DNA of 64,000 nucleotides. It comes from Psilocybe azurescens (Eukaryota; Basidiomycota; Agaricomycetes; Agaricales; Agrocybaceae). The notes below the pieces were generated by a model. It was not told the origin of the DNA. It did no database searches and saw nothing but the letters and a program-made list of their open reading frames with translations. The translations under genes were made by a program, and so were the position numbers. The stretch covers positions 1 to 64,000 of the forward strand of contig JAJIRX010000708.1 in NCBI GenBank assembly GCA_023853785.1, written 5' to 3'. This document shows, piece after piece, positions 2,182-44,863 of the stretch (positions are counted from its first letter, which is position 1; each line of letters opens with the position of its first letter).

Positions 2182-4084
2182 TGAGATGTTTAGTGCGGGG
2201 TGACTTTGTAATTGCCCAATACACAACACCCAATCAAAATATTTATATTGATCAGTTCGATCTGGGAGGGTAAGCTCGTAAGGCTTATTACAATAACTAG
2301 TTTAGCAGAGTACAGACTTAGACGATCGCTCTGGGGTGACCACTAGTAGCTAGAGAACGCTTTACAGGCTAGTACACACAAGGCACTTGAATAGTAAGGA
2401 TCTCTCTCTATATGAGGGCGATCACCAATATCAGGGGATCGCTTTTGGGGGCGAGTGTACATGGGACACTTGACAGTTTCTCTTTATATAACCCAAACTC
2501 AAACTTTGTCAAACACTATAAGCGATCACCCGTATTAACACGTAGTAGATCCTTGGTTCCTATAAGCAACTGGGCACACTAGTCCACAGTCCTTAGTTTA
2601 CTATAGGCAACGTCCTGAAACAGTCGGATTTCTCTGACAGTCGTCCCTAGTTACTATGAGCGATCACTAGCCTTTATAGGGTTCCCACCGTACTTAATAA
2701 TCCCCAGGGCAGTCTTACTATAGGCAACGTCCTGAACAGTCGGAGTTCTCTGACAGTCGTCCCTAGTTACTATGAGCAATCGCTAGTCGTATAGGGTTCC
2801 AATCCGTACTTAACAATCCCCAGGGCAGTCCACGGATGACTTATAAAAGCCTGCTTATCAAATCTAATAGACCTGACGTTGAATATCACAATGGCGATCG
2901 CTCACGAAACCAGGTAGCGCCTAATTGCTTAAGGTGAACTGCAGTGTTCGATTTCTTATCACACAAATCACTAGTCCTCGAAGTGTTAACACTAGAATTC
3001 TTATTCAGAGTAAATTCTGATATCAAATCTGGGGTGTAAATTACTTGGTTCCTATTCTAAGATACAGGACTGTTTTTATAGACTAAATAGATACTTTGGC
3101 TTGTGATAATTGAAAGAGACTAAGAGAAAAGGAAGGAAATGGACCGCGTGCTGCCTAGCCTTTGCTGCACCAATTATAATAGTGGAAAGTACTAGTTTGC
3201 CTGGGCTACGGCGCTATTTGAAGATAACATGGTTGTCCATGCGGCAGTGCCTTCTGGGTAGCGATCACCCGACTTATTTTATCAGATGGCTCGCGGCTAA
3301 GGCATGTCGGGACTAGATTACTTAGGGTATATTTCCTAGGAAACCCTCCCAAGGTTCCCAGCACAGTTGCTATTGGTTTAGGACCCCTGGAACAGCAGGT
3401 GCCCTTATCATGAGGCAAGTTACCTCTAGTAGCGTGTGGCGATCGCCGGCTGGGCGATCGCTCACTCACGTTGGCTGCATTGCAAATTACAAGTTGTTAT
3501 AGTCGGATCTATTAGACCGCCATATGCTGAGTTGTACACAAGATTTCAATTGCCAATACATTCGGTCCGTGGGGCGATCACCCGTGTGGCGAGCGATGCC
3601 TGATCCCCGAGCGGTTGATCGCCTAATTTAGTGAACAGCCTTTGTGAGGCCTGGACACAGTGATCGCTTGCTAATTAATAAGGTTTTCATCACTTGGCGA
3701 TCGCTCAAGACACTGGTGGGTGTTACCCCTGTAAGAGCCAAGGTCATTTCTTAAGGGTTTCTTCTTTGCATGGGACTAATAGTATGATCAATGGAGCGGG
3801 CGATCGCTGACGCCGGTTAGTTGCTTTGATAGCTGTGTAGGAAACTAAAGGTAGTCTTTGATTCGTAGCACTGATTAATAGGCCACACTACACCTTAGTT
3901 AGTTTGTAAGGTCTATTACTCTTGTTGGCCCACTAGGAAGTAAAGCCTCAAAGCCTAATAGTCTGGCGTATCTCCTACCCTTCACTAGTATAATGTACTA
4001 GTTTATTACAGATAACAATCGCAAAAATAAGGGCCTCTGTGTCTCACTATGAATTGTAAGCTCAGAATGGTTTACACCCTTTCA
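2182..4084 (-). repeat. 3' LTR of the giant element (left copy)
   Basis: 1903 bp, TGAGATG...CCTTTCA on the plus strand, matching 17435-19360 almost base for base. It holds five copies of GCGATCGC (2894, 3439, 3454, 3697, 3800). Relative to the right LTR it lacks about twenty single bases, mostly in homopolymers. Short open frames inside it, including one at 3110-3316, recur in all three LTR copies with different frames and are not genes. Confidence 0.9.
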
Positions 4085-4099
4085 TCTCCCCCAACTAAA
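4085..4099 (-). promoter_or_regulatory. Polypurine tract next to the 3' LTR
   Basis: On the minus strand the bases directly before the 3' LTR read TTAGTTGGGGGAGA. A purine run here is where plus-strand DNA synthesis of an LTR element is expected to be primed. A near-identical copy occurs inside the element at 6816-6831. Confidence 0.6.
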
Positions 4100-4529
4100 A
4101 GATGACTGTCCTCAGTCGATCGCTCACTTGGTTTCACTATTACTTTGGGTTTGTCCGAAGATGCACTCCTTCTGATTTTGGCCAAGTACGGTTATTACAA
4201 GTTCAGTTTATTCCTATCAGGAGTTCACTATGTTCCAGTGGGAGGATACCCTCAACGTTAGGCAGCGATCGCCCCCTGGCTGAGATATCTCGTCCCGCGA
4301 TCCCCTTCCGATATCCGTGATCGCCGTGATGTTTATTAATAGCCATGCCTATAATTAGGCACGGAGATCACCGTCTCATTAGCGGGTTTCTTTGGGCGTC
4401 AATTTAACTTTAGTCTTTCGGCGCTTCTCTATCGTCGCTGCCGTACACATTTTTCACATAAAAGCTGGGGCGATTTACTGGCTGGCAGCCCACCTACAAC
4501 CCATCTTTCTCACTGCTCTTTCCCGTATC
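4100..4529. other. Internal non-coding stretch before antisense gene A
   Basis: No convincing gene. It holds GCGATCGC at 4265 and many GATCGC/GCGATC relatives, and may serve as the promoter region of gene A, which starts at 4530 on the plus strand. Confidence 0.4.
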
Positions 4530-6418
4530 ATGCCTCCTTCTTCTCAAGAGCTTCTCCACCATCTGCAAAAGGCCTGGGAACTTGCCCACAAAGCCCCGTT
4601 CGCCGAGGATCGACTGACGCATGAAGAGGCCGCCGTCGTTCTTGGTGAAATGCAAGTTCATCTGGTGAGTTGCACGATTCCGCTTTCACTTGTTTTCTCT
4701 TATTCAACAATTTCTATTAGTCCAACCACTTCCTCCAGTACGAGGATAAAGACTTTGAAGAATCCGAGTTCGCAATCAGTGTGCGCCGCACACTTTCGCA
4801 ACATATTTTCTTGTTTGTTCGGGCACGGTCTCGGACTTTGAGTTGTACCAGCACTTCTTTCCTCGCGGTCCTTTCTCTACGGTAGGTCTTTTATCACTTT
4901 GTTTTGCTATTTATATTTTACAGCCGTGACTACTTCTTGTTTAGGAGAACACGATCTCTTGGGACGTGCATAGTCTGGCCGGTGCTGCTTTTCTTAGGTC
5001 TTCGACGGGATCGTCCCTCCTAGCCCGACAGACGAGGCGATCGCTCCTCCTCTGGTCCTCAGCCACCAGAACAATGCCCTCTCGCGCGTCAAAGGGAAAG
5101 GTAAAGCTCGCGCCCTTACCCTCCTCCCGCTTCTCCAGTTGCTGCATCCCCACCTCTCCGTCCGATGGAGATCCTGGAGATGTTCGCTCAGGCTGAGGAC
5201 CGTCGCCACCGCGCTCTTCCCTCCACGCCCGTAGCAGGTCCAAGCGGCGTTCGGCGATCGCCTCTCCCGACATAACTCCAGCACCCGTCGATCCTCCTGC
5301 CAAACGAAAACGTGGAACCGCTAAGTCAACGACTGGCCAACGAGTCCACGCCAAGTCATACGATCGCAAGAAATCGACGGCGATCGCTGCACTCGAGGCG
5401 AACCCTGGTGAGCCTGTTCTGCGGGCGGCGAGTCCAGACGATCCTCCTATCGCTGCTCAAGAGCTCGCTGATCTAGGCAATCACAAGTCTGTTGTAGGTC
5501 ACTTTTTGCTTTATCTGACTGATTATTTCTGACTTTAAGTGTTTTGCCAGCCTCTGATGATTTGCGCCCAGTGTGTTTTGTCAAACACACCTTCGGCCTG
5601 TACATTCCGCGGCCTTGGCGAGGCTTGTGGACCTTGCCAGAGGCCAAAACCAAAACCCTGCTCTTTCCGCGCTCCCCACCTGTCCAGATGCGTCTGTACA
5701 ACCGGTACGCTCAGATGGGATCGCTTTCGGCCAATGGTAAGTTTTTATCTTTTGCAGTTTTACCCCGGTATGCTTTTTAACAGATTTCTTTAGCCCTACG
5801 CTTGCTATGTCGGGATTTGCGGGATGCGCGTCGCCTTGAGGTCGAGGCGATCGACCTCGCCGCCCGACTCCAGTCTCGCACGCTTGATTTAGAGTTCCGC
5901 CTCTCCGAGACCCTTCAGGCGATCGTCCACAACTTCCCCACCGCCGACAACGTTTTAGCCCTTGTTTGATGGTGACGAAGCGCTTCGACGAGCGGCCATC
6001 GGCTTCTCTCTTTGATCTGGAGGACCCTTTGAAGTGGGCGATTCTCTCCGAAATTTGCACGAACTCCTTCGAGCCCTTCCCCTCGCCATCTCGAGCGATT
6101 CCCGCAGCTTTATCAGCTGCTTCAAGAATCTGGCTATCTGGATGACGACGGGAACCGTCCCTCCTGTCCCTCGACCCTCTGATGATCATCCCATGCTCGA
6201 TTTGGAGGCCGAGGAAGTTCCCAGTGGCAAAGAGTCCAGTGAGGACTCCACCGAGTCTGTCTCATCTGACAGTGGAGGAGAGAGTTCTTCCGAGGACGGG
6301 GATCGCCCGAGAAGGCTCCCCTGCCGTAACGGAGGAGTCCTCTGACTCCGTTTCTGAAGGATCTGCCGAAGAGTCTGAGGACGATCGCCCCTCCAAGAAG
6401 GCCCGGCTCGCTCACTGA
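4530..6418 (+). CDS. Antisense gene A: Zn2Cys6-like, coiled-coil, acidic-tail protein inside the retrotransposon
   Basis: A spliced, protein-like gene opposite to gag-pol. Exon 1 starts at ATG 4530 (MPPSSQELLHHLQKAWEL) and ends before GTGAGT near 4664. Exon 2 follows TATTAG (SNHFLQYEDKDFEESEF...). Next come a basic linker (about 5255-5490, PPAKRKRGTAKSTTGQRV) and an exon after 5550 with six cysteines spaced C-x2-C-x8-C-x8-C-x2-C-x7-C (ICAQC...CGPC...C). That spacing resembles the fungal Zn(II)2Cys6 binuclear cluster, although the basic residues usual after Cys2 are missing. A helical, coiled-coil-like exon follows (about 5792-5970, RDLRDARRLEVEAIDLAARL), then an acidic Ser/Glu tail ending PSKKARLAH at 6418. 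At least three frame changes are not explained by introns. A role in DNA binding or nuclear regulation of the element is inference from layout only. Confidence 0.55.
5551..5740 (+). other. Zn2Cys6-like cysteine cluster exon of gene A
   Basis: Translation around 5560-5665 gives six cysteines with gaps 2, 8, 8, 2 and 7, followed by an Arg/Lys-containing stretch (CQRPKPKPC). It is bounded by a TTTTGCCAG acceptor and a GTAAGT donor. Known Zn2Cys6 domains are C-x2-C-x6-C-x5-12-C-x2-C-x6-9-C, so the second gap is two residues longer. It could instead be an unrelated Cys-rich knuckle. Confidence 0.5.
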
Positions 6419-6981
6419 CTGTTTTTCACCCTTGCTTTCTTGGGACTTTATATGTTTTTATATGGCAGTACTTTTCTTTTTGTGCACTTTTTGCATACTA
6501 CTTAGGATATTTTTCAGGGTTTCTTCCTATAGTAGTTTTATTTGTATCGCATAATTCTCTTGTAATGAAACCCTTTTTCTTGGTCGGGTGAATGTTTCTT
6601 TAAGAAATTAGTTACATTGATCTCTCTTAATTGACCATGCTATCCTTTTCCTTGCCGAGTCTTCAGTCCTACTGCTTATTTTACTTTTACTAATTGCTAA
6701 GTTTCGCTTTTAAAAACTTGTTAGAGAATCACTAGATTTTTAAAATCGCAAAATTTCTTCTAAGTCCTCTACCCACGTGGTGATCGCTTCATGATCGCTA
6801 CACATGGTGATCGCACTCCCCCAACTAAAGATCACAACTCCCTAGTTGTGTAGAGATCAAGCATTCGCACTGAATTATCTGCAATACAGCGGCCGACCAC
6901 GTGTGGATCCCATAAGTTATACCTGACCCGGGCGATCCTTTTATAAAGGAGAATCGACATAGTTAGTCTTGTCCCGTAGCC
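6419..6981. other. Spacer between antisense genes A and B
   Basis: AT-rich 3' region of gene A, then GATCGC-rich sequence and a repeat of the polypurine-tract motif at 6816-6831. No gene is seen. Confidence 0.4.
6816..6831 (-). promoter_or_regulatory. Internal copy of the polypurine tract
   Basis: CTCCCCCAACTAAAGA matches the LTR-adjacent tract at 4086-4102 except for one missing A. Read on the minus strand it is a purine run. Some retroelements use a central polypurine tract as a second priming site; that this copy does so is inference. Confidence 0.35.
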
Positions 6982-8700
6982 ATGGATCCACCTATTGTTC
7001 CACCCATTGCGCGCCTAGCCGAAGAGAGGCTCGCTCTGATTTCATTCCTCACACAACACCGTACTATCAGCGTGCACTCAGCGAGTATTATCACTTGGAT
7101 GAGGGTATTATCCAGAGGTATCGCCAGCACCCTTACTCTTCTGCCCTCGACCGATGCCCAAGCCTTCGCAAGCTTCTCGATGAGTATTGCATTTATAAAC
7201 ATGAATGCCAGAATCGTTGAAGCGCAAGTGGACCCCGTCCTAGGTTCGTACCACCTCTGCAATCCTTAATCCTAGCCACTGTACAGCTGGTACGTTACTC
7301 TATAACTTTTGTCCTGATGATAACACTTTCTGATCCCCATCTTAGCTCCAGTTCGACATTGCTGACATCAACTATGAAAACGAAGTAGGCATGATTTTTG
7401 TTGACCTTGCCAAGTCCTGGATTCAACTAGGCCCCGTGGGTCTACCACACCGGACGTCTTCACGACCATATCTATGTTCTGATCGCTCGACCGGAGGTCC
7501 CAGTTTCCGTGCCATTGGTCCCGTCATTAGTCGGCCTATTCGACAGGTAAAACTTTTTATTCACAAAATGCTTAGGAACCCATACTGAGCGTTAGAGAGT
7601 CTAGATTCTTTATACCTCGTGGATCCAAAGCAATCAACAATTTCAGAATAACCAATTACTTCCTCCCCACTTGCGCCTATCAATATTGGCTGCCCGGCGT
7701 CAGGAATATGTTCACCTTTTCGCCAGTTTCCAATTGGGTGTTCGCTTGGAGCCGCATGGGATATGGAAGTCCAACCGCAAGGCGATCGCCAAGGGGATCT
7801 CCCTCAGCGATCCACAATTCTCACACTCGTCTTGGCCGGATTGACTAAACACATAAGTAGCTTTGATAGCCTACTCTGTCTTGTATAGACCAATGTCTAA
7901 TCCTTTGCCTAATCTCTACGTGCCTGTTCAAATTCCCCCAGCCAGGTCTTCTATGAGGACCTTGATTTTCGTTATGCTGTCGCCGACGAATATGAAGACC
8001 TAGCCCCCGAGATCAAGGCGCTATTTTACCAGGTTCCCGAAATTATGAACCCTACTAGCGATCCCGTTGCTTATCACAATTTGTTGTACGACCTCAACGC
8101 TGCTCACCAGAAATTCAAGCGGGCGTTCTACCAGAAACAGAAAGAACAACCTAGTTCCGGTCGTCCCTTTGGCAGAGCTCATCCAACTGACTCATCTCTT
8201 GGTGCGTAGAAACAGTTATCAGAAGTTAATGTTGGCTAGACTCATGATCTCTTAGTTGGCAATTCCTCGTGGTGACATTCACTTTGGGCAATACTCCGGT
8301 CAAGCATTTCAGACTGCCTGTATCACTGGTTCCGCGTGGTGCGCTTAGCACCCATTGCTTGGGGAGCTCAGTTCCATCAGTTTTTCACTCTCATGTCGGA
8401 CCCGACAGTGCCAAGGTTTCAACAATGATCCTTACCCGTCCCGTAAGCGCTAATCACTTTTACTAGATGGGTTTAGCAACTGATGGAGCCTTTTTCAGCT
8501 GATCCGGGCTTTTACGACGGTACCGAATACTACAGCGCTCTGAGAACCATTTTTCCTATCCGCCACTTCCTATTGACTTTGGAGTGCCGTCGTTTGGAGT
8601 ATTCAGCCATCTTTAAGCGTTATAGTGCTCCTCTTCGTCCCCGTTCTGTTGCTTTCCATCCTGGAAATATAGAGGAAATTCCGGACCATTTCCGCCCGTA
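6982..8700 (+). CDS. Antisense gene B: unrecognised spliced protein inside the retrotransposon
   Basis: Likely start ATG 6982 (MDPPIVPPIARLAEERLAL). Later protein-like exons are about 7345-7450 (LQFDIADINYENEVGMIFV), 7670-7845 (LPPHLRLSILAARRQEYVH), 7945-8208 (DLAPEIKALFYQVPEIMNP, then a Lys/Gln-rich segment), 8255-8415 (IPRGDIHFGQYSGQAFQTA) and 8499-8700 (DPGFYDGTEYYSALRTIF to stop TAG). Several exons are preceded by pyrimidine-rich CAG/TAG acceptors. Frames change at 7430 and 8340 without clear introns. I see no known catalytic motif, signal peptide or membrane segment, and function is unknown. Lying between genes A and C on the same strand suggests the three travel together with the element. 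Confidence 0.45.
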
Positions 8701-8916
8701 GTTTCGCAATTTAGCTGCATCAGTTTTCTAATCACTTCGTATTAGGCTTGTTTTTACATACGAACTGATTTGCAAATGTCTACCACGCGCTTGCCCAGTG
8801 TCTTCTCACTTCTGCAGATCTTGTCAAGCGATCGTCGCCCATTGATCTTTCTATGAGAGGGTTCTTCCAGTATAAGAGGGATCGCCCTATTGTCAAGCGA
8901 TCTCCCTCACTTCATC
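8701..8916. other. Spacer between antisense genes B and C
   Basis: About 215 bp with several GCGATC/GATCGT motifs and no open frame of note. It is a possible promoter for gene C. Confidence 0.35.
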
Positions 8917-10193
8917 ATGCCTGTTCTCACTTCAGAAGTAACTGCTATATCTCTTGTGCCATCTGTTGCGGATGCTACGAACTTTACGTTCCGAGCCCTT
9001 CACCATGCTCCTAAGGACTGGACTCCTACTGCTGAAACCGCCGCTGTCAATTATCCGTTGTTGAATGAAGCGGCACGGTTCCTTGTGCGTTTTTAACATC
9101 CTTAAACCTGTACTAGTATTCGATTGTTTTTGCTTTCTACTAGGTGGGCTGGAAGGACCATGCTGCTATCATTAATCAACTTGGGGATCCTTGTGAGATC
9201 GTTTTCGGTTTGGCGAAAAAGGGCTTCAGAGCTGCCACTGCTCGATTCCAAACTGTATCGCTATACTTCAGAGTATCACATTATTGGGGCGATCTGCAAA
9301 GGAATTCATGCTGATCGCGAGGCCCAACTCAACGCTGCATCTCCTACCAAGGCCGCAGAGGACGAAACCCCGGTTGTGAGTGTTACAGCGATCGCTTTCT
9401 CTCTCTCTATAGCCCAACTCGCCCTTCAGATTCAAAGGATTGGCAATCGTCTTCACCAGACTCGCCCTACTGATGAATCTGGAGAGGTGGAGTTCGTCTC
9501 TTCCACTTGTAGCAACCCTGAGCTTACTTTCTATCCTCAGGAGGAATTTTCCGACGTAAGCCGCTTATCCGTGCTATCGAGCGATCCCTAACATTCTCTG
9601 CATCAGTCCGCCCTATGATCGTTGACGATGATGTCGAGATCATTAGTTCCACTACTAAGAAGTCTCGTAGTAAGCGATCGGCCGCTGATACCAGCAAGGT
9701 ATGTCCTCCTTTTCATTAGGTCCCTTGACATGAATGATAATAAAGCTAGGGCTCTTACAAGTCTAGTGATAAACGCCCGAGGTGATTATACTGGACTACG
9801 ATCAAGTCCCTGGAGTTGATACTAAAGGACATCCTTTCTCAAGGCGTCCCGCTATGCAGCCACTGGTTCCAAACGTGCTAGAACTGACAAGTTTGACTTT
9901 TTGTCTACCGAAGGTACGCATCTAGCGATCGCCCTTTTCTTGTTTTGGCGATCCTCCGCTAAACTCTTGGTTCGCAGATCCGTCCACTAAGGTCATCCCG
10001 GAGGTGCTCTCTCAATTCTTTGACGCAGCCAGCACTTCCCCTTTATTGCAAGTGAGGATGCCGTTAACCGCCACCAAATCCTCTTTTACAAGCACGTATC
10101 CGGACCGCGAAGTCTAATATGTTTTTCAAGGCGGTCGAACGTAGAGTCGCTATGAAACAGCTCTCCGAGATTACTTCAGCTCTGTCTAAATAA
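8917..10193 (+). CDS. Antisense gene C: unrecognised basic protein inside the retrotransposon
   Basis: ATG 8917 opens MPVLTSEVTAISLVPSVAD. A short intron (donor GTGCGT near 9084, acceptor TACTAG near 9144) leads to VGWKDHAAIINQLGDPCEI. The reading then continues, after one unexplained frame change near 9245, through YTSEYHIIGAICKGIHADR and a Glu/Ser-rich part to about 9580. Later exons encode VDDDVEIISSTTKKSRSKR (about 9623-9700), a second basic patch TGSKRARTDKFDFL (about 9860-9910) and a tail ending AVERRVAMKQLSEITSALSK with stop TAA at 10191-10193. The two Lys/Arg patches look like nuclear localisation signals. No family is recognised. It ends about 300 bp from the convergent 3' end of pol. 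Confidence 0.45.
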
Positions 10194-10488
10194 TTGTCTG
10201 TCCTCCTGAAGTCCCTTCTAGTTTTCCCCTTTTTGGTAGAGTACCTTCCAATAGCAAACTTCTTAGTCTATTATTGGTTTGGTGTTTCCCTCTTATTACC
10301 CAGTACGAGTTTTAATGAAGACGTCTTTCGCCGTCCTGGCGATCGCTTGTTCGGGCGATCGTCATTACCGGTTTTTAAGATTTTTACTCGTCTTCATCTG
10401 AGTGTAAAGGAGCATGCTCAAAGGCCATGTCTTTGAAAGGCAAGGACTGGTCATCGGGGCCGTCTATTATTTTTCTTAGACCTTGCTT
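10194..10488. other. Spacer between gene C and the 3' end of pol
   Basis: Convergent intergenic stretch, T-rich, with one GCGATCGC at 10339. No gene is seen. Confidence 0.4.
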
Positions 10489-11828
10489 AGATATATCAAT
10501 GAGGTCCGTAACAGAGCCGGGATCGCTATCTTCTCCCTAGCAAAGTAAGGTACTACCCTAAAGGCTGCTACCTTGCTCTGCATAACCGCTCCGTTCATTT
10601 CTGCCACTACATACGAGCCTCCCTAGTCCGCCTTATCACTATCATAGGTCCTAGGTATCTTGGCTTTAACTTCTTATTTAAGGAAGATTCAACTCCTGAA
10701 TTGCGTACTAGTACTAGATCTCCAGGCACAAAATTATAGTCTTTAATTACTGCCTGATTATCTCGTTCATATCGCAATAGGGCTTCATATTTTTGCTTAT
10801 CTATACGAGTCCGCATCGAGGCTACGTGTAACTGGTGTTTCGCTAGTGCTTGAGCGAAAGCGATTAAGGCTTCATCGGTCATTACCCCAGTAGGAGGTTT
10901 GACTAGCCATGTCGCCTTGACGTCTAATGGGAGAACAGGGTTCGCCCCAGTGACCATAAAATATGGCGAACACCCCAGCCTCCTTCGTATAGTCACACGA
11001 TCTGCCCACATAATATATGAGAAGAACCAGAACCACTTGTGTACATTAGCGGCTCCTAGCATTTTATATATTACCTGGCGAACGTCCCAGTGTGGTCGTT
11101 CCACCGCACCATTGGCTCGTGAATTATACGGAGAGATCTTAATGCTGACGATGCCATACTTCTCAGTCAACCAGTTGGCAGCTGCTACAAACGGTGGTCC
11201 ATTATCTGTTACAAATTCCGCTATACAAGCCCATCTGCAGATGATATCTTCCCAAATCCATTGTCCTATAGCCCCTACCCATTTCCGAGCGTAAAGGTCG
11301 TCCCTCCATCCAAGATGTAAGAGCGTCTCTTCCATGCACTATATGATGACAATTATTTGATGCAGTGCTCATTACCATACAGTCTGCATGTAAGGTCTGA
11401 AATATTGAAGGAGTATGTGTGATAACCGGTTTAATCCTTATCAGTGTCTTTTGTCGTTCCTGACATAAGTGACAAGTTTTCACAAACCAATTAATATCCT
11501 TCTCCATTTCTGGCCACCAGAATCGCTGTACCAGTAGCTGAGTTGTTGCATAGACTCCTCTATGGCCGACGTGGTCATGGGCTGCAGTAAGCATATACAG
11601 TCGTTTGTCTTTAGACACCACTAATCTATGGGTAGCGCCCGAGTTCCTTAGATATAAGCGCCCTTCAAACATAATGAATCGCCTAACCCATTGTAGAAAT
11701 TGCATATGTTGCTTTTTATCCAAACCCTTCGGTTGGAAGCTGTGATCCTTGTGCCACTGGATCGCCCATTCTAATTGGCGATCCTGCTGTTTTCCTTTTG
11801 GCGATCGCTGCTCTTCTGGATAAGGCAT
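10489..11828 (-). pseudogene. pol: Integrase region of the giant element
   Basis: Minus-strand open frames 11828-11202 and 11335-10607 plus a tail to 10489 form an integrase. The zinc-binding part has two histidines (HDHVGHRG) and a CHLC pair. The catalytic core shows Asp in the QTLHADC context, the second Asp in VTDNGPPF and the Glu in NGAVERPH, giving the DDE set of retroviral integrases. The C-terminal part ends in [20 protein letters not shown] in a shifted frame. Frames switch at about 11330 and 10610, so as written the protein is broken. No chromodomain is seen after the core. It would insert the cDNA copy into the genome. Confidence 0.75.
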
Positions 11829-12049
11829 TGCCAGAATTGCTGTCTCATCAGGTAATGTTAGAGTAGATACTAATTGCTGAACATAGTCCCTTCGTTCAGG
11901 ACCTAGTTCCTCCCCTTAGATTGCAGGTATAGCTCAAGCTGCTTTTGTTCTATTAGTCTCATTTCGTCCGCTTCCGCCAACTCTATTAAGAAGTTATCAG
12001 CAACTCTAGCTATCCTGTCAAACTCATGGTTTCTTGCTCTATCTCTTGC

Positions 12050-13919
12050 TTAATGTCTAATATCTTTAGCAGACCTCTTTCCTTCAGAGGCTTTTGGCTT
12101 TTGGTGGACGCTGGTGATCGCTCGATAGGCGATCCCCCTACGATCTCCCAGCTCTTCCAGTACAAATCCGGTCCTCTTATCAATTTCTGATACGAAGTCT
12201 TCTACCGGTAAAGGAGGTGGATCGCTAGAGTTGTCTAATTCTATCACAGGTGGTCCCCAGGGTTCTTCTTCCGTATTCTCACTAGGCGGTTCCGGATTAT
12301 CAAGCGGCTGGCGAGGTCGCCTTGATAAACCATCTGGTCCGAAGGTTTTTCCAGCAACATGTCTGATAGTGAAATGGAAGAGACCTATCTCTTCTATCCA
12401 TCTATTTATAGTAGCATTAGGCATAACATCAGGATTCATTAGCATACCCCGATATATTTTGCATCCGTTTCTACCACAAGATTTCTGACACCTATCAGCC
12501 AGTGGCGATTGGCTTCTAAGGCTCTTTTAAACCGTAGAGTTCCCTCTTAGGTTGAGAGTATCTGGCTTCATGCTCGTGTAGTGTGATAGACCCAAACTTC
12601 GCAAAGTAATGTTTCTTAGGGTTCTTATTATCCTCTTGGTAGATATAGTAGCCTACAGCTATGTAGGAAGTATCAACTGCTAATACAATGCGATCCTCGC
12701 TTTCGTAGTCCAAGGGTCTTAAGCATTGCGCATTTATTACTCCGTCTTTAACTCGCTGCATGCTAGCAATCTGTTCTGGACCCCACTGGAACGGTGTGTT
12801 CAGATGGGTTAACTTTTGTAATGGTCGAGCCCTCTCTGCAAAACCAGGGATATACAATCTTAGTACCCCAGCAGTTCCTAAGAAGGCGCGAACCTCTGAC
12901 ACATTTTTACAGTCTCCCAGTCCATGATCACTTTAACCCGTTCTTCCGTGGGCTTTCGCCCATCGAAACCACACAAGTGTCCCACTACTACTATTTCTTC
13001 AGCACATAACAACGACTTAGTACCCGAGAAGGTCGCTCCTGCGTACTTAATTCGCTGAATTATTCGATTTACATTTTGCAGATGCTCCCACACGAAACGG
13101 CGAATACCTAGATTTTCGGCGATCGTCTCATAAGTTCCATCCTTATCCTGATATCGAGAGACCGGTCCTCGCACACCTACATCGTCAATGTAAGGAATGG
13201 TATACTCAGGCATCTCTTCTCTAAGGATATAAGTTACATCATCATGAAAGATGGGTACAGAGTTGGTCCATCCCATAGGCAATGTAGTTAGGCGCATAGC
13301 TCCAAAGGGTGTCTGGAAGGTAGTCATGTCTCGGGAGCTCTCTTCTAAGGCTCGCTCATCATATCCTACATACAAGTCAAACATTCCCCACATGCTCTCC
13401 CTGCAAAATGTCCTGCTAAATCCTCTGTCGCTGGAGGAACCCCGAATGTGCTATGGTTACTGCATTAAGAGGCTCCAGACTATGGACTATCCTAAGACTT
13501 TTCCCATCCTTCTTTACAACCGTAAACCACTTCGATCTAAAGGATGAATTTGATGGTTCATAGACTCCTGATACCTGTTTAGATTTAATAATCCTACAGA
13601 CTTCATTATAGAGTCCCGGTGGTATTGGGATATTCTTATAAACCCAAGGCTTGTGTTCTACCGTAGGAATTCTGACAGGCGGGAAGAAGTCTTCTCGAAA
13701 CTGACCCCTTTCATCATCATTCCAGGCGAACACCTCATTTTGTTGCATCATAATATGATGTACTAGTTTTCGCTCTTCAGGCCATAAGAATTCTCCTTTA
13801 TGAACCTTGTCGAACGCCGCTTGCCTTTCTGCCGTGTATCGCCCAGTCGGTTCGAAGTCAGGAGGGTGTGGGTTTAGAGGAGGCATATCTTTTAAGGGAT
13901 CGCCCACAATATTCCTCAC
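12050..13919 (-). pseudogene. pol: Reverse transcriptase and RNase H region of the giant element
   Basis: Open frames 13919-13416, 13393-12878, 12902-12516 and 12445-12050 together give an RT-RNase H polyprotein. RT fingers and palm start in RSKWFTVVKKDGKSLRIVHS. The active site is YIDD at about 13181-13192 (PEYTIPYIDDVGV). The RNase H part shows the first Asp in LAVDTSYIAVGY, the Glu in KRELYGL and the C-terminal Asp in FGPDGLSRRP. Three frame changes break it. One is close to 13410, where FLQRQRI diverges from the expected text. The order RT-RNase H then integrase places the element in the Ty3 clade. Confidence 0.8.
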
Positions 13920-14342
13920 TATCCTGTACTGCTCCGGTAACTCTGTATATACGGGCTTTATTTTTAAGGCTACAGGCTTATATTTCTTACCCAGTAAGAC
14001 GGTCGCCGCTGGTCCAGCTTGGTCTTTCCTGGTCGCAGGATCGCTTATTTCAGGAGGCGATCGCCCTAAGTGGTGATCGCTCCCTCTATCACAATTAGAT
14101 AACTGATGCAGGTACGTTTCTACTTTTCTTTTATCACTAAGTTCTACTTTTTCTTCTCTTATGGCTTGGGATAGAAAAGCATTCCTAACCCCTTCTGAGG
14201 TGAAACCTCCGTCGGATGCTAGGAATACCCCTCTACTGAGATACTCTGAGTCTCTTCGTCCAGTTCAAACACCACCGCTACCTCTCCTTGTTCTGGAACC
14301 AAGTCCTCGAGGCTGTCTAAAAAGACTGGGCTTGCTTGACTT

Positions 14343-15017
14343 TCAAAGGTCTCCAGGACCCAGACCTCTAGCATAGGTAGGCAATAGTGCCTTTTGCTGG
14401 GTGTTGGGGTCTGTGACTAGTACCGTTGTAGAGCCATCTGATTCAGTAGTAACTACACTAGTAGTTAGCTGATTAAACGGCTGTCCCAATAGAACTTTAT
14501 AAGCAGGAGCTTTGATGATATGTACTTGTAGATATATAGTCACCCCTCCGAAACGGAATGCTACATTTTCTGCAAGACCTAGCGTTCGGTCCACAGTTTT
14601 ATTAGCACTTTGCATGTTTATCGTAATAGCAGGATTCCATGTTAGCCCCATCTCAACTGCCGTGGCTTCAGCCATAGACACAATTTGTGAGCCTGAATCT
14701 AAAATGGCTTCTTCTTGGAAGACTCCATTGATTTTAGGGAAGATAACCCTAAGATTACCTGACTCCCGGGCCACATAGGGTTCTTTGGGAATAGCACCGT
14801 CATTACTCAAAGCAAATTGAAGATAAGGATCCGACGCCACTTTCCAAGTAGGCTCCATCCGGTCATCAGCTCTTATGTCACTGGCCATTAAGAACGCTGC
14901 TACAGGGAGTTCGTCCACAGTTAAACCCGTTTCTATTTCTTTGGGACCCAAAGGAATCGCTTTGGGCAACTGTTTTTGGGTGGGCGATTCCTCGTCCTCA
15001 ATTTCTTCTAATAACAC
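14343..15017 (-). CDS. pol: Aspartic protease domain of the giant element
   Basis: A continuous 224-residue open frame on the minus strand. The retropepsin signature is EEAILDSGSQIVSMAEATAV, with DSGS in place of the more common DSGA/DTGA. A hydrophobic flap region and VLLGQPFNQL (the usual LGxxxL-type ending of the domain) follow. It would cut the Gag-Pol polyprotein. The frame ends at 14343; the link to RT at 13919 needs either a frameshift or a corrected base. Confidence 0.7.
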   Translation of the reverse strand: MLLEEIEDEESPTQKQLPKAIPLGPKEIETGLTVDELPVAAFLMASDIRADDRMEPTWKVASDPYLQFALSNDGAIPKEPYVARESGNLRVIFPKINGVFQEEAILDSGSQIVSMAEATAVEMGLTWNPAITINMQSANKTVDRTLGLAENVAFRFGGVTIYLQVHIIKAPAYKVLLGQPFNQLTTSVVTTESDGSTTVLVTDPNTQQKALLPTYARGLGPGDL

Positions 15018-15376
15018 GGGTGTCCTAACTTTGGTTAAGCTTTTCTTAAGGAAATCTCTTAAGTTGGGCGATCCCCTATCAGGCCCCTCAGTGTGACCGG
15101 CATTGTTAGGTCTAACATTTCTTTGAAAACCCTTTCATAGTCTGCTTCTGACTCAATAGGCGCTTGAGTTTTATAGGCTGGACCAGGTTTTCTCTTTTTC
15201 TCTTTTTTCAAATGACTGAGTAGGTACACTGGTACCATTTGGTCGGACTACCGTTGTTAAAGGGGAACGTCTATATAGGGAAGCTCAGGCGTGCTATCCT
15301 CATTAGTATTTTCTGATTCCGATACAGGCATCTCCTTTTCAGGTAACTCCGTGGGTATATTCGCTTTCTTTTATTT

Positions 15377-17320
15377 TTAGGTGGGGAAACCCCTTTTCGC
15401 TGGTAACTGTATCTCTGTCTCCTCTTCACTTGACTCACTTTCTTCTACTGGTTCTTTAAATTGTACTTCTTTTCTTTTATTTTTCAATTGGTTCTCCGTA
15501 GCTTTCGCAGATCTGGTAGTCATAATAGGCCGTCGACGATCCACGTCCGCACCCTTCATCGAACTTAATGAAAATTTGATCCTTGTTCCCCCATGGTTGA
15601 GTTATCCTCGTATGATAAGAATTGGTCCACCTTGTTGCCATATTTCTTTTAAGATCACCAAAGACACGGGCGATCTCTGCTTCCTCTGAGTCTTCTGACT
15701 GGACTAAACCATCATAAGTCTCATCGGGATCAGGAAAATATAGATTCTGGACTAGAGCTTTAGCCACAGATACAACTCCAGGCTTCCCTTATTCATATTC
15801 TCAATAACTTCTTTCATGGTTTTCTCATTATCCTGTCTGACCATGAGACCTCCTGGCAGACGGATTTTCCCATTTTCCCTAATGATCCAACCAAAGCTAA
15901 TGTGTTTTTCAGCCGGCAGGACATTCTCCCCATCGGTGACCTGGTTCCCTACAGTAGTAGCAGGTATTAGGTCCCACATAGGTTTGCTGACCTGTTGCCC
16001 CTGGGCGAGTTTGGTAGTTACTGCTGTTTCCAGGAGTTGGCGATCGCTGGTTACTGGCGTTTCGCCCTGGCTTCAAGCGCGTTCAATAAGGCTGTGTGTA
16101 CCTCATTGAACTTCCTATTCACGTTTTCATTAAATGCCGCTTGGTCTTTAGATTGCTTTAGTAGTAGCTTCATAGAGTCAAGGAGGTTTGCTGTGGCCTC
16201 TTCATTCTTAGGTATTACATCCTCAGGAATCATAGCGTCACGGTCGAGCGATCGCTTGACGGGCTCATCATCAGTTCGCCTAGTAGAACTCTGGGAAGTT
16301 CTTTCAGCTATTGTCACTGCATGACTGATGACTTCTGCGTATTTGAAGCGATCTTCTAACCTTACGTTGGGCGTTGCCCGTCGTCCAATGAATCCGCTCT
16401 TAGGTCTAACCTATCTATTAGTCGGCCTCTGAACGCAGGTGACAGACAGCTCATAAAACGTTCAACCAATTCCCTATTGGATACTAGGGAGGGTCTTGGG
16501 TTATTTTCGCTGCTGCTGCACCAAACGCTCTTTTGAAAGATAGTAATTCCTCTAGCTGATCAGCTTCGATCAGGTAACGACCACGGTAAGGTTGACATAT
16601 TTTTGCCAACCTAGACAGCCATCCCCTTTTAATGCTGATGCCTCCGGATAACTACTAATAATTTCATCTCGGTATTGCTCCCAAGTGCCTTCTGCATAGG
16701 TATCAAATGCTATCCATTCTTGTTCTGTTTCAGCAGACGCATATTTGCCAACTTTCTCTTTCTTAGCTTGATCTTCTTCTATTTTATGTTGTTTAAAGAG
16801 ATCCTCCATAGATGAAAGGAATCTCAGCAATTCTGCCGGTTTCCTCTCATCGAATTTCGTGCATCTTTAGAAGTGGGTAAGGGAAACCCTATTGGTGCCA
16901 TTTCAACACTGATTTCGGATTCTGGAATGTCTGAAGGGGCTGGATCTAGTACTAGTCGAGGTTGTAGTCTCGACAAAGTTTCACCACTAGTTTCTGTGTG
17001 CTCAGAGATGACTGGAGCGGGGCTACCAGTTATTGTTTCTAAAGGATAAATGACGGAGGCGGGTCCTGGTCTATTAGGAATCGTCGATATTCTATTGAAG
17101 TTCTCAAGCGAACGTCCCTCCTATTACTCTCAATAGGGGTTTCTGTTATGCCGGCTGCAATAGAATTACGGGTAGTCCTAGATATTCTAGTTCCTGCTGT
17201 GTCTACTATCCCAAAATCGGGTTTTGGAATTGGTTTGCTACTAAGAGCAGTGTTTTTAGGTTTAGTCGCTTTACGCCGTGCGTCAGGTGGTTTGGTTGGT
17301 GCAATGTTTTCAGACTTTTA
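15377..17320 (-). pseudogene. gag: Gag region of the giant element
   Basis: Minus-strand fragments run from an N-terminal basic Pro/Thr/Ser segment (about 17310-17050, KPPDARRKATKPKN) to a capsid-like helical stretch at 16830-16570 (LLRFLSSMEDLFKQHKIEED, then WEQYRDEIISSYPEASAL). Next come 16317-16051 and 15979-15752 (ENGKIRLPGGLMVRQDNEKT), then an Asp/Glu and Lys-rich linker towards the protease. Frames change several times and no clean ATG or CCHC knuckle is visible. It matches the general style of basidiomycete Ty3 Gag, which coats the RNA in the virus-like particle. Confidence 0.55.
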
Positions 17321-17415
17321 ATCTGAAGGCAAGATAGCGGTGTATTTGGTGCCAAATGCTTATCGAAATTTTTCTCAATGTCAAGCTGGTTTTGCTTTAT
17401 CTAGTATTAACCCTC

Positions 17416-17432
17416 CCTCGCGGTGGGCTCCA
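17416..17432 (-). promoter_or_regulatory. tRNA primer-binding site of the giant element
   Basis: Two bases after the 5' LTR on the minus strand reads TGGAGCCCACCGCGAGG. Starting with TGG, it is complementary to a tRNA 3' end in CCA. I cannot say which tRNA. It confirms that the right LTR is the 5' LTR. Confidence 0.6.
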
Positions 17433-17434
17433 GA

Positions 17435-19360
17435 TGAGATGTTTAGTGCGGGGTGACTTTGTAATTGCCCAATACACAACACCCAATCAAAATATTTATA
17501 TTGATCAGTTCGATCTGGGAGGGTAAGCTCGTAAGGCTTATTACAATAACTAGTTTAGCAGAGTACAGACTTAGACGATCGCTCTGGGGTGACCACTAGT
17601 AGCTAGAGAACGCTTTTACAGGCTAGTACACACAAGGCACTTGAATAGTAAGGGTGATCTCTCTTATATGAGGGCGATCACCAATATCAGGGGGATCGCT
17701 TTTGGGGGCGAGTGTACACGGGACACTTGACAGTTTCTCTTTATATAACCCAAACTCAAACTTTGTCAAACACTATAAGCGGTCACCCGTATTAACACGT
17801 AGTAGATCCTTGGTTCCTATAAGCAACTGGGCACACTAGTCCACAGTCCTTAGTTTACTATAGGCAATGTCCTGAAAACAGTCGGATTTCTCTGACAGTC
17901 GTCCCTAGTTACTATGAGCGATCACTAGCCTTTATAGGGTTCCCACCCGTACTTAATAATCCCCAGGGCAGTCTTACTATAGGCAACGTCCTGAACAGTC
18001 GGAGTTCTCTGACAGTCGTCCCTAGTTACTATGAGCAATCGCTAGTCGTATAGGGTTCCAATCCGTACTTAACAATCCCCAGGGCAGTCCACGGATGACT
18101 TATAAAAGCCTGCTTATCAAATCTAATAGACCTGACGTTGAATATCACAATGGCGATCGCTCACGAAACCAGGTAGCGCCTAATTGCTTAAGGTGAACTG
18201 CAGTGTTCGATTTCTTATCACACAAATCACTAGTCCTCGAAGTGTTAACACTAGAATTCTTATTCAGAGTAAATTCTGATATCAAATCTGGGGTGTAAAT
18301 TACTTGGTTCCTATTCTAAGATACAGGACTGTTTTTATAGACTAAATAGATACTTTGGCTTGTGATAATTGAAAGAGACTAAGAGAAAAGGAAGGAAATG
18401 GACCGCGTGCTGCCTAGCCTTTGCTGCACCAATTATAATAGTGGAAAGTACTAGTTTGCCTGGGCTACGGCGCTTATTTGAAGATAACATGGTTGTCCAT
18501 GCGGCAGTGCCTTCTTGGGTAGCGATCACCCGACTTATTTTATCAGATGGCTCGCGGCTAAGGCATGTCGGGACTAGATTACTTAGGGGTATATTTCCTA
18601 GGAAACCCTCCCAAGGTTCCCCAGCACAGTTGCTATTGGTTTAGGACCCCCTGGAACAGCAGGTGCCCTTATCATGAGGCAAGTTACCTCTAGTATCGTG
18701 TGGCGATCGCCGGCTGGGCGATCGCTCACTCACGTTGGCTGCATTGCAAATTACAAGTTGTTATAGTCGGATCTATTAGACCGCCATATGCTGAGTTGTA
18801 CACAAGATTTCAATTGCCAATACATTCGGTCCGTGGGGCGATCACCCGTGTGGCGCAGTGATGCCTGATCCCCGAGCGGTTGATCGCCTAATTTAGTGAA
18901 CAGCCTTTGTGAGGCCTGGACACAGTGATCGCTTTGCTAATTAATAAGGTTTTCATCACTTGGCGATCGCTCGGTAAGACACTGGTGGGTGTTACCCCTT
19001 GTAAGAGCCAAGGTCATTTCTTAAGGGTTTCTTCTTTGCATGGGACTAATAGTATGATCAATGGAGCGGGCGATCGCCCGGACGCTTCGGTTAGGGTTGC
19101 TTTGATAGCTGTGTAGGAAACTAAAGGTAGTCTTTGATTCGTAGCACTGATTAATAGGCCACACTACACCTTAGTTAGTTTGTAAGGTCTATTACTCTTG
19201 TTGGCCCACTAGGAAGTAAAGCCTCAAAGCCTAATAGTCTGGCGTATCTCCTACCCTTCACTAGTATAATGTACTAGTTTATTACAGATAACAATCGCAA
19301 AAATAAGGGCCTCTGTGTCTCACTATGAATTGTAAGCTCAGAATGGTTTACACCCTTTCA
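17435..19360 (-). repeat. 5' LTR of the giant element (right copy)
   Basis: 1926 bp, TGAGATG...CCTTTCA on the plus strand. It is the more complete of the two LTRs and agrees in length with the solo LTR at 32495 (1924 bp once its nested insertion is removed). It has five GCGATCGC octamers. The element's promoter should lie here, but no core promoter stands out. Confidence 0.9.
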
Positions 19361-19608
19361 ACGGGTATGAAAGAAAGGAGGGTGCCAAGGGCACGAATGA
19401 AAGCCAGCCAAACGAATCCGACCACCATACAGGCTGCTTGAACATCGCTGACGTTCAGGAGTTTAGCGTTGAAGGGACTGGTAGTGGGGGTGTGGGGGGG
19501 ATAAGCACAGGACGCCTTGAATTGGGAGAGCAGTAGATGGTGCCATTCTGTATAAAAACACATCCGTTCGTCCAGTCGAAAGGTGTGGAGGACATTGAAC
19601 AAAATCAC
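19361..19608 (-). pseudogene. Possible upstream exon of the host gene cut by the giant element
   Basis: A minus-strand open frame (about 80 residues to the LTR junction) with a hydrophobic run, VGFVWLAFIRALGTLLSFI, just before the ACGG target duplication. Joining 19361 directly to 2181 does not keep this frame into the downstream GFHIPKE segment, but another frame reads through. Whether the insertion is in an exon or an intron is unresolved. Confidence 0.35.
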
Positions 19609-20394: not shown

Positions 20395-20980
20395 CCGGCA
20401 GCAGGATCTACGAGCTCTACCTTTTCTACTGCCTTTATTGTCTCTGATGAGAGTGAGGATGCAGAAGAGCGCTTCTTCTGCATCCCACTGTCTCCTTCAA
20501 CGTCCTCAATCTTTTTTGAGTCCTCGACTCCTTCCCGATATCGCCATCCAGGCAGAAAGATTAACCGGTTCTACCTTTGCTACCGCCTTCATTGGCGCTG
20601 ATGAAGGTGAGGATGCGGAAGAGCGCTTCTTCTGCATCCCACTGTCTCCTCCAACGTCCTCGATCTTTTTTGAGTCCTCGACTCCTTCCCGATATTGCCA
20701 TCCAGGCAGCAAGATTAACCGGTTCTACCTTTGCTACCGCCTTCATTGGCGCTGATGAAGGTGAGGATGCGGAAGAGTGCTTCTTCTGCATCCTGCTGTC
20801 TCCAACGTCCTCGATCTTTTTTGAGTCCTCGACTCCTTCCGATATCGCCATCCAGGCAGCAGGATCTACGGGATCTACATTCTCTGCCGCCTTCATATAT
20901 GTTGATAAAGATGAGGATGCGGAGGAGCGCTTCTTCTACATCCTACTGTCTCCTCCAACGTTCTCCATCTTTTTTTTGAG
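20395..20980. repeat. Minisatellite of about 150 bp, roughly four units
   Basis: Marker text GATATCGCCATCCAGGCAG recurs at about 20537, 20691 (one change) and 20839, giving periods near 154 and 149 bp. Each unit contains GAGGATGCGGAAGAG and TCTTTTTTGAGTCCTCGAC. Because the period is not a multiple of three, the open frames through it shift from unit to unit and I do not call a gene. Confidence 0.75.
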
Positions 20981-22207
20981 TCCTTGACCGACACCTTCCG
21001 ATGTCGCCATCCGCCCTCTATTGTCCCTATTACATGGTCTCTTCGTCACCTCTTCCTGTTCGCTACCTCCATCGCTACCCGATTTATTCGATATGGCCCA
21101 ATCGTGTACTCAGACCACAAGTTGCAAATAGCCATGGTTGCAAAGCCATTGCGCCATCTGAGGCCTTGAAGCTCATCGGTGAAACATGGGTCCAGAAGTA
21201 AGTTATCTGCTGGCTACTCTACTTTAGCTTACTTACCTTTGAATATTCCAGACCGTTTGCTGCCCCTCCAATGTCCCTCTTGCCGAAAGAACCTTTCCTA
21301 TCCCTTCATACATATGTCTTTGTCGGTTGATACCATTGTTGAAATCCGCTCGTTCTTTACTTATCGGTGCTGTTGGATTTTTACCCTATGATTTCTTTCC
21401 GCCCTCCCGCCATGTCAATTTCTTTGCTCCTAATCAATCAATCAACTCTGCGGACTACGGCAAGCCTACTTCGCAGGCTCTAATATCCATTCCCAAGCTT
21501 TCCCGCTCAAGTCTTCATCCAATATAATTTCTATCACTTCCCTAGTCGGGGGCATGTTGGCTCTCTAGAAATTCAGTCGACCAAGATTTCCTGCAAGGTC
21601 AATTGATCCTCCTCGTTTCTCATGACACATCGCATCCCCAGCAGGAATTTGTTGCGAAAACTTGCCATTTAGAGACGAATCCATAACTGGAATATCATGT
21701 GATCAATATCAACACGTCGGGCGCCAGCGGTGGCCGCAATTTTCTTGCAAAACCTTTGTTTCTCTACCTGTAACGCAGACTTCAGTCCTTGTCGTTTAGC
21801 TTCAACTGATATCAGGAATTCAAATTAATCATGTTGCCTACTTCTATATCACGAACATCACGACTTGGTGTCAGTGTACGCTACCGATTCACATCGTCAT
21901 GGTACAGCTCTCAACCAACCATTTAGGTAACCCGCCCTGAACAAGTGTACACAATACTGCAAGAAGCCAAAGAAAAGGAGGCTGCGTGCCGGACGTAAAC
22001 AGGGCGGAGCTGTGTGTCCGGGCGGAGCGGCGATTTCAGCCTTGAAAACGGCTGATATGGAGCTTTTGATGCACAACTTGCCCTGGGTCGAATCCGACAT
22101 ATTTTAATATCTTTTGGGATTGTTGTGCCTATACATGAGCCTGGTGAAGCTGTTGAAGAATCTGAGAAACTTACGGAGCATGTAGAGGGCTGTGAGTTAT
22201 CCTCCTT
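20981..22207. other. No gene seen
   Basis: Only short, unconvincing open frames; no recognisable protein or repeat structure. Confidence 0.4.
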
Positions 22208-31463: not shown

Positions 31464-32494
31464 GCTTGCGGTCAAGAATGGGTACTGTGTCGAATCCGGT
31501 CCCACAATTAGTTAACAATGTAGTCGGCGTCGCATTTTTGAATTATTATCGTTTTCGTGATTGGCTACGGAAATATGTAAACGCCGCTAAGCCAGGGTGT
31601 TGGGGCATTTTTTATCAAAACCTTGTCGCCGCAGATATGGAATGTGCAGTATTTTGGTTACCAGTCCTATACGAGTCCTATTTACGAATCCTTTACGTTA
31701 CGAGTTCTATTATGAGTCCTATTACGGAGTAATAGACTCGTTCTTTTCTTTTAACCAGGGACCCCAGCTGTTGTCACAAAATTCTATCTTCGATAACGTG
31801 ATCTATTAATGTGATGTGATCTTATAACATTAAGCACGTGTTACTCAAAAACCGTGGCATTTTCAGCTGCTTACTTGTAGTGAGGGCCGACGCTTTGCCC
31901 AACATTAACAGGTCCTTTTTAATTTTTTACACCAGAATTTGCAATAAAATATATTACAGTCATCCACCAGCTAATGGAGGGCTTCTGTGTCCCCACATAT
32001 TCCAGCCAGAGTCTGCTGGAGTCCGCTCGCGTAATAGTGGATTCCACAGTGGAATGAGAGCAAAAATATGGCACAAGACCCTGCTATTTTATTTAATATC
32101 AATTCCGGCAGAATTGAATGGAATCTGTTTACAAAACGGAATACCCCAGAACAGAACCAAAAACAGAACCATAAACAGACTTAAAATTTGATATTATTTC
32201 TTGGCAACAGTGAACAATGTCACATGCGTGACTTTTGGTTGCCACGTCAGTCCATTGGTTACTCCAACCACCACACCTCTTCCTGCAACCACCACCACCC
32301 TGCTGCTGCCGTCATGTGTGCCCTCACCACCTTGCCGTTGTCAGTTGAAGCCAGGCACTCACCAACCTGATCCAACATGCATTGCAGCACCACCGACTGA
32401 TGACAGGTCTGTGTACGATGACAACGACTCCAGACACACGTACACAGTACGATGGCAATGATGACAGCTCCATATATGACAACAACAACACCAG
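31464..32494. other. No gene seen
   Basis: 3' flank of the mannanase gene, then low-complexity CCACCAC/CAACAACA-rich sequence just before the solo LTR at 32495. Near 31665-31725 there are short repeats of TACGAGTCCTATTA-like words. Confidence 0.4.
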
Positions 32495-34360: not shown

Positions 34361-34365
34361 ATAAG
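34361..34365. repeat. Target-site duplication ATAAG (left) of the nested LTR
   Basis: ATAAG is repeated directly after the nested LTR at 35557-35561. The unbroken LTR copies have a single ATAAG at this point. Confidence 0.9.
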
Positions 34366-44622: not shown

Positions 44623-44837
44623 TTTATATAGATACCCATATTCCAACAGACTGCAAAGAAACTGTCTGGATGTGTTATTTTTATAAAGTATTTAATAATA
44701 ATAGGTGAACCAAACAAATACAAAAATATTTTATATCTCCTCAAAGATGTGATCCAGGGCTTTCCAGTACATTTTAAATTATATAATTTCATAAGAATTA
44801 CATAGTGTTATAGTCAATTCAAGTTCAATTTCAAAAA

Positions 44838-44863
44838 CATCCAGACAGTTTTTTGAGTCACTG
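44838..44863. repeat. Right terminal repeat of the Tc1 relic
   Basis: CCAGACAGTTTTTTGAGTCA then CTG followed by TA, the expected target duplication. An inverted partner, AAACTGTCTGGATGTG, lies at 44658-44673 just inside the element. The left end was not found. Confidence 0.5.

Follow-up and report, generated by a model that had tools for sequence, protein, structure and literature searches.

Introduction

Accessory genes in antisense orientation are an established feature of several long terminal repeat (LTR) retrotransposons. In plants, the gypsy elements Grande (gene23), RIRE2 and Retand (TRP28) possess a long region between pol and the 3' LTR with an antisense gene and, in the excerpts available of two papers, such genes are reported from the majority of copies and from distantly related species, some of their products being nuclear or predicted to bind DNA, while the roles of the plant and ascomycete genes are described there as undetermined (PMC11963269; PMC7264820). 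Other excerpts mention a gypsy element of Botrytis cinerea, Boty or BcGypsy1, with an extra antisense gene, brtn (cited in PMC7264820; PMC8365987), and the antisense gene HBZ of HTLV-1, the product of which is nuclear (PMC11963269). In a different class of transposons, the VANDAL elements of Arabidopsis, parts of two further papers describe the protein VANC, which recognizes a short motif that has accumulated in the element encoding it, chiefly in non-coding sequence; DNA methylation silences that element (PMC5735166; PMC10398659). Here we describe a Ty3/gypsy element of the basidiomycete Psilocybe azurescens, 17,179 bp long (positions 2182-19360), read on the - strand of a 64-kb stretch of DNA (positions 1 to 64,000 of contig JAJIRX010000708.1, assembly GCA_023853785.1; hereafter the window). 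It carries three antisense, intron-bearing genes, designated A, B and C, together with an array of the 10-bp palindrome RGYGATCRCY.

As in Grande, RIRE2 and Retand, the region between pol and the 3' LTR holds antisense genes in most copies of this element. The differences are the number of genes, three and with introns, and the element-wide palindrome array, which the excerpts consulted do not mention for the plant elements. Pieces of A, B and C, as well as the annotated proteins P0001 and P0002 (related to A) and P0005 (related to C), had no Pfam match to TRP28 (PF04195), and the element is thus not placed with Retand by sequence. Boty is likened by description and not by sequence, as a gypsy element of an ascomycete fungus that carries an extra antisense gene; brtn is reportedly the work of Zhao 2011. 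HBZ, which is spliced, can likewise be compared by description, as an antisense gene in a retroelement that is in this instance a retrovirus. The best-fitting analogue is VANC/VANDAL, by mode of action only and not by sequence: here too, a motif has accumulated in the element and is rare in the sampled host DNA. VANDAL is however a plant DNA transposon for which binding and demethylation have been demonstrated, whereas both are putative in the present case, and VANC motifs are tandem repeats whereas the RGYGATCRCY sites are mostly dispersed, apart from one duplicated unit of ~116 bp in the LTR.

The initial annotation of this stretch considered that fungal Ty3 elements normally contain only gag-pol, which is overstated given the antisense genes of Grande, RIRE2 and Retand and of the fungal Boty. 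Antisense accessory genes at this position are therefore of an already known kind, and what is added here is the set of three intron-bearing genes and the private palindrome array. Limited listings of open-licence literature on antisense or additional genes in basidiomycete, Agaricomycete and other fungal elements, and on GCGATCGC with fungal elements, Psilocybe gypsy elements and fungal anti-silencing, contained nothing describing this system, which is not proof of absence; in the available part of the survey 'LTR Retrotransposons in Fungi', the terms 'antisense' and 'additional ORF' have 0 occurrences (PMC3248453).

A conserved antisense gene with introns

The antisense module occupies ~6.4 kb between the integrase region and the 3' LTR, where genes A, B and C occupy the + strand, opposite to gag-pol, in agreement with the position and strand given in the initial annotation, which had recognized a Ty3 element of 17 kb. 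Gene A (4530-6418, + strand) is composed of five exons (4530-4664, 4721-4881, 4945-5493, 5551-5736 and 5794-6418), and in ten close copies, the window included, its four introns are bounded by GT and AG without exception (40 of 40 sites). In six distant copies, 11 of the 24 splice sites of A are anchored on both flanks; at the anchored border, eight of them conform to GT...AG, two (C202 and C886a) are off by one base and one (C886b) does not conform.

The ratio of non-synonymous to synonymous substitutions (dN/dS) of gene A is 0.06-0.27 in 13 of 15 pairs of copies and subfamilies, the other two pairs being saturated at synonymous sites; the expectation, formulated beforehand, of a ratio below 1 was hence borne out. 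In the same elements, values of 0.18-0.20 were obtained for the reverse transcriptase and for RNase H/integrase, and of 0.60-0.89 for the protease, with very wide limits (19-21 codons only). These ratios indicate that gene A is under purifying selection. Furthermore, its position is kept across subfamilies whose A differs by ~30% in DNA, and four relatives of 559, 525, 292 and 196 amino acids are present in the protein collection, the first three from Psilocybe cyanescens; the 559 amino acid protein is 68% identical to the A query over 70% of its length. From this conservation and from the annotated relatives, we infer that A is spliced. Position over subfamilies and purifying selection together make it clear that A, as had been suggested for A-C, belongs to the element, and it is clearly a conserved, intron-bearing gene.

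Antisense placement lets introns survive the RNA stage of a retroelement, the genomic RNA carrying them as unspliceable complements, and this orientation would keep the introns of A, B and C. Upstream of A, a TATA-like box (ATAAAAG, 4458-4464, + strand) lies ~66 bp before the ATG, and CATAAAAGCTGG precedes the start of the gene in ten of ten copies from five subfamilies. Since the surrounding DNA is itself 82-93% alike in C440a, C580 and C161a, the conserved box is support for gene A and not proof.

The genome (70.4 Mb, 937 contigs) contains 14 pol-bearing copies, defined by pol identity of at least 84% over at least 800 bases; not counted are the 68% families and the pieces of pol on C551, C286 and C886. 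Among these 14 copies, gene A is present in 13, three of which (C161a, C580 and C440a) have a divergent, partly aligned A (67-71%), the full gene B in 11 and gene C, whole or in a part of at least 800 bases, in 12. Conservation of the module in place, which the initial annotation had made the point to verify, was therefore found. Copies devoid of it were limited to lone LTRs, to C440:55115 and to subfamilies keeping A without B and C. C440:55115, the sole pol copy without A, is a truncated duplicate, 99.7% identical to C440:69905 over 2.95 kb and lacking its A side. C440a and C440b are not independent, being 99.7% identical over 2.95 kb. The three genes align at 92-99% among close copies, with order and place unchanged, and, as the introns of A obey GT-AG at every site in the ten close copies, the module is not a product of chance.

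A private array of palindromes

The element, in its LTR, intergenic regions and genes alike (2182-17434, no strand), is scattered with GATCGC/GCGATC (65 distinct sites) and with RGYGATCRCY (26 perfect copies in 15.3 kb, where an order-2 model predicts 0.3). The element, over its 17.2 kb, contains 100 occurrences of GATCGC, compared to 10 in the remaining 44.8 kb of the window, and the density falls at the element ends. The bases flanking the 65 sites, which played no part in their selection, complete the palindrome: a purine is found at -3 in 55 of 65 and at -2 in 55 of 65, and a pyrimidine at +6 in 60 of 65. Of 122 GATC sites in the element, 26 have the two palindrome halves together, versus 0 of 251 in the background. 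Outside, RGYGATCRCY was found 0 times in the 44.8 kb of the window, 0 times in 30 kb from four contigs and 0 times in the 9.7 kb of a second gypsy family; this outside DNA excludes 32401-34400, a stretch containing a decayed copy of the LTR, which holds 2 GATCGC and 4 RGYGATCRCY. Genome-wide, GCGATCGC occurs at 1222 places versus 311 for the reversed control, counted irrespective of element membership.

With 7.4 sites per kb outside genes and 3.2 per kb within them (28 versus 37 of the 65 sites, p=9e-4), the array is denser in non-coding DNA, where 28 of 65 sites sit in 25% of the element length. The introns of A (233 bases, 0 sites) count here as non-coding, p being 4e-4 without them, and B and C were counted with their introns. 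The 3' LTR (2182-4084, - strand) alone holds 14 distinct GATCGC/GCGATC sites, including 11 perfect palindromes, and three or four motif hits lie within ~270 bases upstream of each of A, B and C. Once palindromic octamers are set aside, 23 sites face one strand and 25 the other, and this absence of strand bias argues for a signal in DNA rather than RNA; an RNA signal is consequently disfavored. Codon usage is disfavored by the density in non-coding DNA, and a general feature of gypsy elements by the second gypsy family.

Gene A as the candidate partner of the palindrome

Two derivatives separate A from its neighbors. At the C440a locus, A is kept, ~110 bases of B remain, C is missing, and 8.8 kb contain 25 GATCGC and 10 perfect palindromes; at the C202 locus, A is next to LTR sequence, B, C and pol are unmatched in 8.5 kb, and 27 GATCGC and 12 palindromes are present. 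As both keep A and the palindrome without full B and C, this correlation within one genome points to A, rather than B or C, as the partner of the palindrome. The second gypsy family mentioned above (C882:296-9992 and C528; L038-L041) likewise contains antisense coding pieces in the interval from pol to the 3' LTR. One of them shows, by eye, a CxxC...C...CxxC...CSF pattern; a pattern scan of this family for a tight six-cysteine cluster found none, and its antisense pieces have no convincing sequence similarity to gene A.

Protein A contains a cluster of six cysteines, C-x2-C-x8-C-x8-C-x2-C-x7-C, which are the same in the window, C161b, C886b, C440a and the two long annotated relatives, P0001 and P0002, and also occur in two sequences assembled from pieces, one of which has an additional residue. 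The N-terminal part of P0001 is helical and is followed by a Pro/Ser-rich linker with KRKRG, the cysteine cluster, a predicted helix (346-393) and an acidic C-terminus that has a basic end, PPSKKVRLTC. Six cysteines followed by a predicted long helix recall the Zn2Cys6 (GAL4-type) fungal regulators, whose layout is of this kind, and a dimer would fit palindromic sites. The Zn2Cys6 rule is C-x2-C-x6-C-x(5-12)-C-x2-C-x(6-8)-C whereas the spacing of A is 2-8-8-2-7, and the family profile does not match. Judged from its sequence, A thus resembles fungal zinc-cluster regulators in layout but fails their profile. P0001 matched 0 Pfam families at E up to 10, P0002 matched none of the Zn2Cys6 kind, and a scan of IMG/VR with P0002 gave no match.

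A decayed LTR and probable host methylation

The window contains a decayed LTR of the same family (32495-34365). When compared to the 3' LTR, 53 of 70 CpG sites differ and only 26 of 685 other C/G positions do; changes from C to T or from G to A account for 68 of the 103 substitutions, and 52 of these fall at CpG. The CpGs of the motif decayed like the rest (14 of 19). Such CpG-centered C-to-T decay is a mark of methyl-cytosine and, by this signature, the host probably methylates this element family.

Possible functions of protein A

The reading that we favor, and on which our confidence is evenly poised, is that A is a dimeric DNA-binding protein which would recognize the palindromes of its own element and either control expression or resist silencing. 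A homodimer, with a putative Cys6 zinc cluster and the predicted long helix, would bind the palindrome on double-stranded DNA and thereby mark the element's own copies. Once bound, A may drive or balance transcription from the LTR and of the antisense genes, and would most likely counteract silencing by CpG methylation, host genes being left alone as they lack the site. B and C would be auxiliary, since relatives without them still carry A and the palindrome. Of the initial suggestion, 'regulatory or captured host genes', the regulatory half is favored, by the palindrome array, the TATA box before each antisense gene and the six cysteines with their predicted helix. A more specific proposal, built on the analogy with VANC, is a self-recognition anti-silencing system in a fungal LTR retrotransposon, in which an antisense intron-bearing gene, its dimeric protein and matching palindromes would guard the copies from CpG methylation with host genes untouched; we put it forward tentatively, as possible rather than probable. 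If it holds, a VANC-like system would exist in retrotransposons and in fungi, and transposons of different kinds and kingdoms would have converged on private address labels in their own DNA. Plants and one ascomycete family already provide examples of antisense genes in LTR elements, and here one such gene comes with a candidate DNA target, which turns 'function unknown' into a direct question: does A bind RGYGATCRCY? The element moreover illustrates how a retroelement can retain introns.

The motif itself appears to be retained. In alignments at 67-90% identity (those above 90% identity or below 250 bases were dropped, as was the second LTR except for L037), the sites of relatives are intact in the window at 100 of 135 positions, compared to 131 of 385 for control hexamers that contain a single CpG, and the sites of the window are intact in relatives at 105 of 214 versus 135 of 457 for controls. 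Several points nevertheless weigh against the proposed role of A. These comparisons overlap, which makes their p-values optimistic. In C440b, the window's sites are kept at 3 of 8 positions versus 12 of 28 for controls; in C886b, they are kept at 3 of 16, a lower fraction than for hexamers at large (0.26). The majority of relatives also have fewer sites than the window copy, a deficit that their decay would produce. The co-occurrence of A and the palindrome comes from one genome and from related subfamilies, and ancestry alone could link both.

The protein and its gene raise further objections. The label 'zinc cluster' is taken from cysteine spacing alone, and the cluster loop of A is not basic, while the corresponding loop is basic in Zn2Cys6 proteins. 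A has no Pfam relative above the curated cut-off and no convincing PDB relative, with only weak PDB matches. The AlphaFold model of A, from four sequences, is unusable (mean pLDDT 36.4) and was not used for fold searches, the helix 346-393 being of low confidence. The short relatives P0003 and P0004 lack the cysteine exon, and the frame of A breaks inside the cluster in several genome copies. No full-length A frame was present in eight of eight copies under a crude splice model, the window giving 182 amino acids and the best copy 474, compared to 559 in P. cyanescens; the window copy is not intact. All dN/dS values are biased downward by the local-identity filter, and several pairs of A approach saturation at synonymous sites. 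For gene B, dN/dS is 0.16-0.30 over the first part, with an upper limit below 1 in six of seven pairs, but the rest has too few changes to be graded; gene C likewise has too few changes to be graded, one of its parts exceeding 1 in three of six pairs. Of these two genes, the expected ratio below 1 is seen in the first part of B.

A host transcription factor or architectural protein, recruited by the element, might instead bind the palindrome, A, B and C then doing something else such as nuclear import or RNA handling. LTR elements often borrow host factors, the LTR and the regions upstream of genes are rich in sites, and DNA binding by A is itself putative. Against it, 75 kb of other DNA contain 0 perfect sites (the decayed LTR, with 4, excluded), the second gypsy family of the same genome lacks the site, and a borrowed factor leaves the sites within gag-pol and the antisense genes unexplained; we regard this explanation as unlikely.

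To a similar extent improbable, in our view, is that A is a classical accessory transactivator or repressor of LTR and antisense transcription, comparable to retroviral Tat or HBZ and devoid of any anti-silencing role. The abundance of sites in the LTR and just before each of A, B and C agrees with it, and a regulatory role has been proposed for the similar antisense genes of plant Retand, in the excerpt available (PMC11963269). Yet 37 of the 65 sites are in genes, more than control of transcription seems to need, and the CpG decay shows that the family is exposed to methylation.

That the antisense transcripts would be functional instead of the proteins, through a double-stranded RNA or small interfering RNA feedback on the element, is very improbable: such roles have been discussed for plant elements, in the part of the source available (PMC7264820), and TATA boxes precede the antisense genes, but an RNA function leaves unaccounted for the purifying selection on amino acids, the conserved cysteines and the annotated proteins of 525-559 amino acids. 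Finally, that A-C are host genes recently captured by transduction, or a nested insertion, is suggested by their gene-like structure with introns and is hardly credible, as tblastn of pieces of A (136 amino acids), B (279) and C (346) against the 70 Mb genome gave, among the matches listed, this element and its relatives only, with no host paralogue, and as A, its splice sites and its TATA box are common to subfamilies ~30% apart in A.

Genes B and C

Gene B (6982-8701, + strand) and gene C (8917-10193, + strand) each have several exons with approximate borders. They are probably genes of the element too, on evidence that is weaker than for A. The TATA box of B (6942-6947, + strand), with a GCGATC site just upstream, and the TATA-like box of C (8871-8876, + strand) are each found in six of six close copies, a weak test at 95-98% similarity. 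B has no known domain and no relative in the protein collection at E 0.01, while for C a relative of 195 amino acids, P0005, is annotated in P. cyanescens. Pieces of B and C had no Pfam match above the curated cut-off; DUF7773 for B and STAS for P0005 were below threshold. The protein of gene C displays (window ~9600-9830) the acidic-hydrophobic stretches DDDVEIISS and PEVIILDYD next to basic runs resembling nuclear localization signals. We take these stretches to resemble SUMO-interacting motifs, and PEVIILDYD is duplicated in P0005.

Structure of the element and its surroundings

The element is a Ty3/gypsy LTR retrotransposon, as established by its LTRs, target-site duplication, primer-binding site, polypurine tract (PPT) and pol order. 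The 5' LTR (17435-19360, - strand) starts with TG and ends with CA; both LTRs are ~1.9 kb long, have TG...CA termini and differ by 18 substitutions over 1903 aligned sites. A 4-bp target duplication, CCGT, flanks the element at 19361-19364 on the 5' side and at 2178-2181 on the 3' side (- strand). The primer-binding site (17417-17432, - strand) is 2 bases off the 5' LTR and the PPT (4086-4099, - strand) abuts the 3' LTR. On the - strand, the order protease, reverse transcriptase, RNase H, integrase was confirmed, all but the reverse transcriptase exceeding Pfam cut-offs: the protease region is at 14343-15017 (gag-asp_proteas, 3e-07), reverse transcriptase and RNase H at 12516-13919 (RT_RNaseH_2, 3.6e-11; RVT_1, 1.2e-04, under cut-off) and the integrase, recognized by its zinc-binding domain, at 10607-11828 (Integrase_H2C2, 7.5e-19). 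The gag region (15018-17400, - strand; approximate borders) has a broken frame and a CCHC zinc knuckle recognized by eye.

A second PPT-like tract, identical with 0 mismatches, lies within the module upstream of gene B (6816-6829, - strand), 2.7 kb into the element, and both tracts are exact in five of ten close copies, the window included. It is a candidate central PPT, a feature of some retroviruses.

Regarding the copies, the LTR search gave 43 matches from the best 40 of 373 candidates, most of them away from pol copies and presumably solo LTRs. Private indels, mostly of 1-2 bases, are present in nine of nine aligned copies, and copies 92-98% identical (e.g., L009 and L011-L017) differ by dozens of short indels, possibly due to long-read assembly error or decay. 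On C440, two inverted pieces (L023 and L024), 99.7% identical over 2.95 kb, have one deletion of B and C in common; its left edge is near window position 7104, and C886a has the same left edge. The C202 locus (L022) is a shortened derivative in which LTR sequence flanks gene A on either side; exon 1 of its A is nearly identical to that of the annotated P. cyanescens P0001.

Beside the element, a 154-bp tandem repeat in four copies occupies 20397-21008, followed by a CGAAGACGA-rich stretch at 23973-24138 and, further along the window (44000-50000), by a stretch rich in ATTCCA/AGGACG words.

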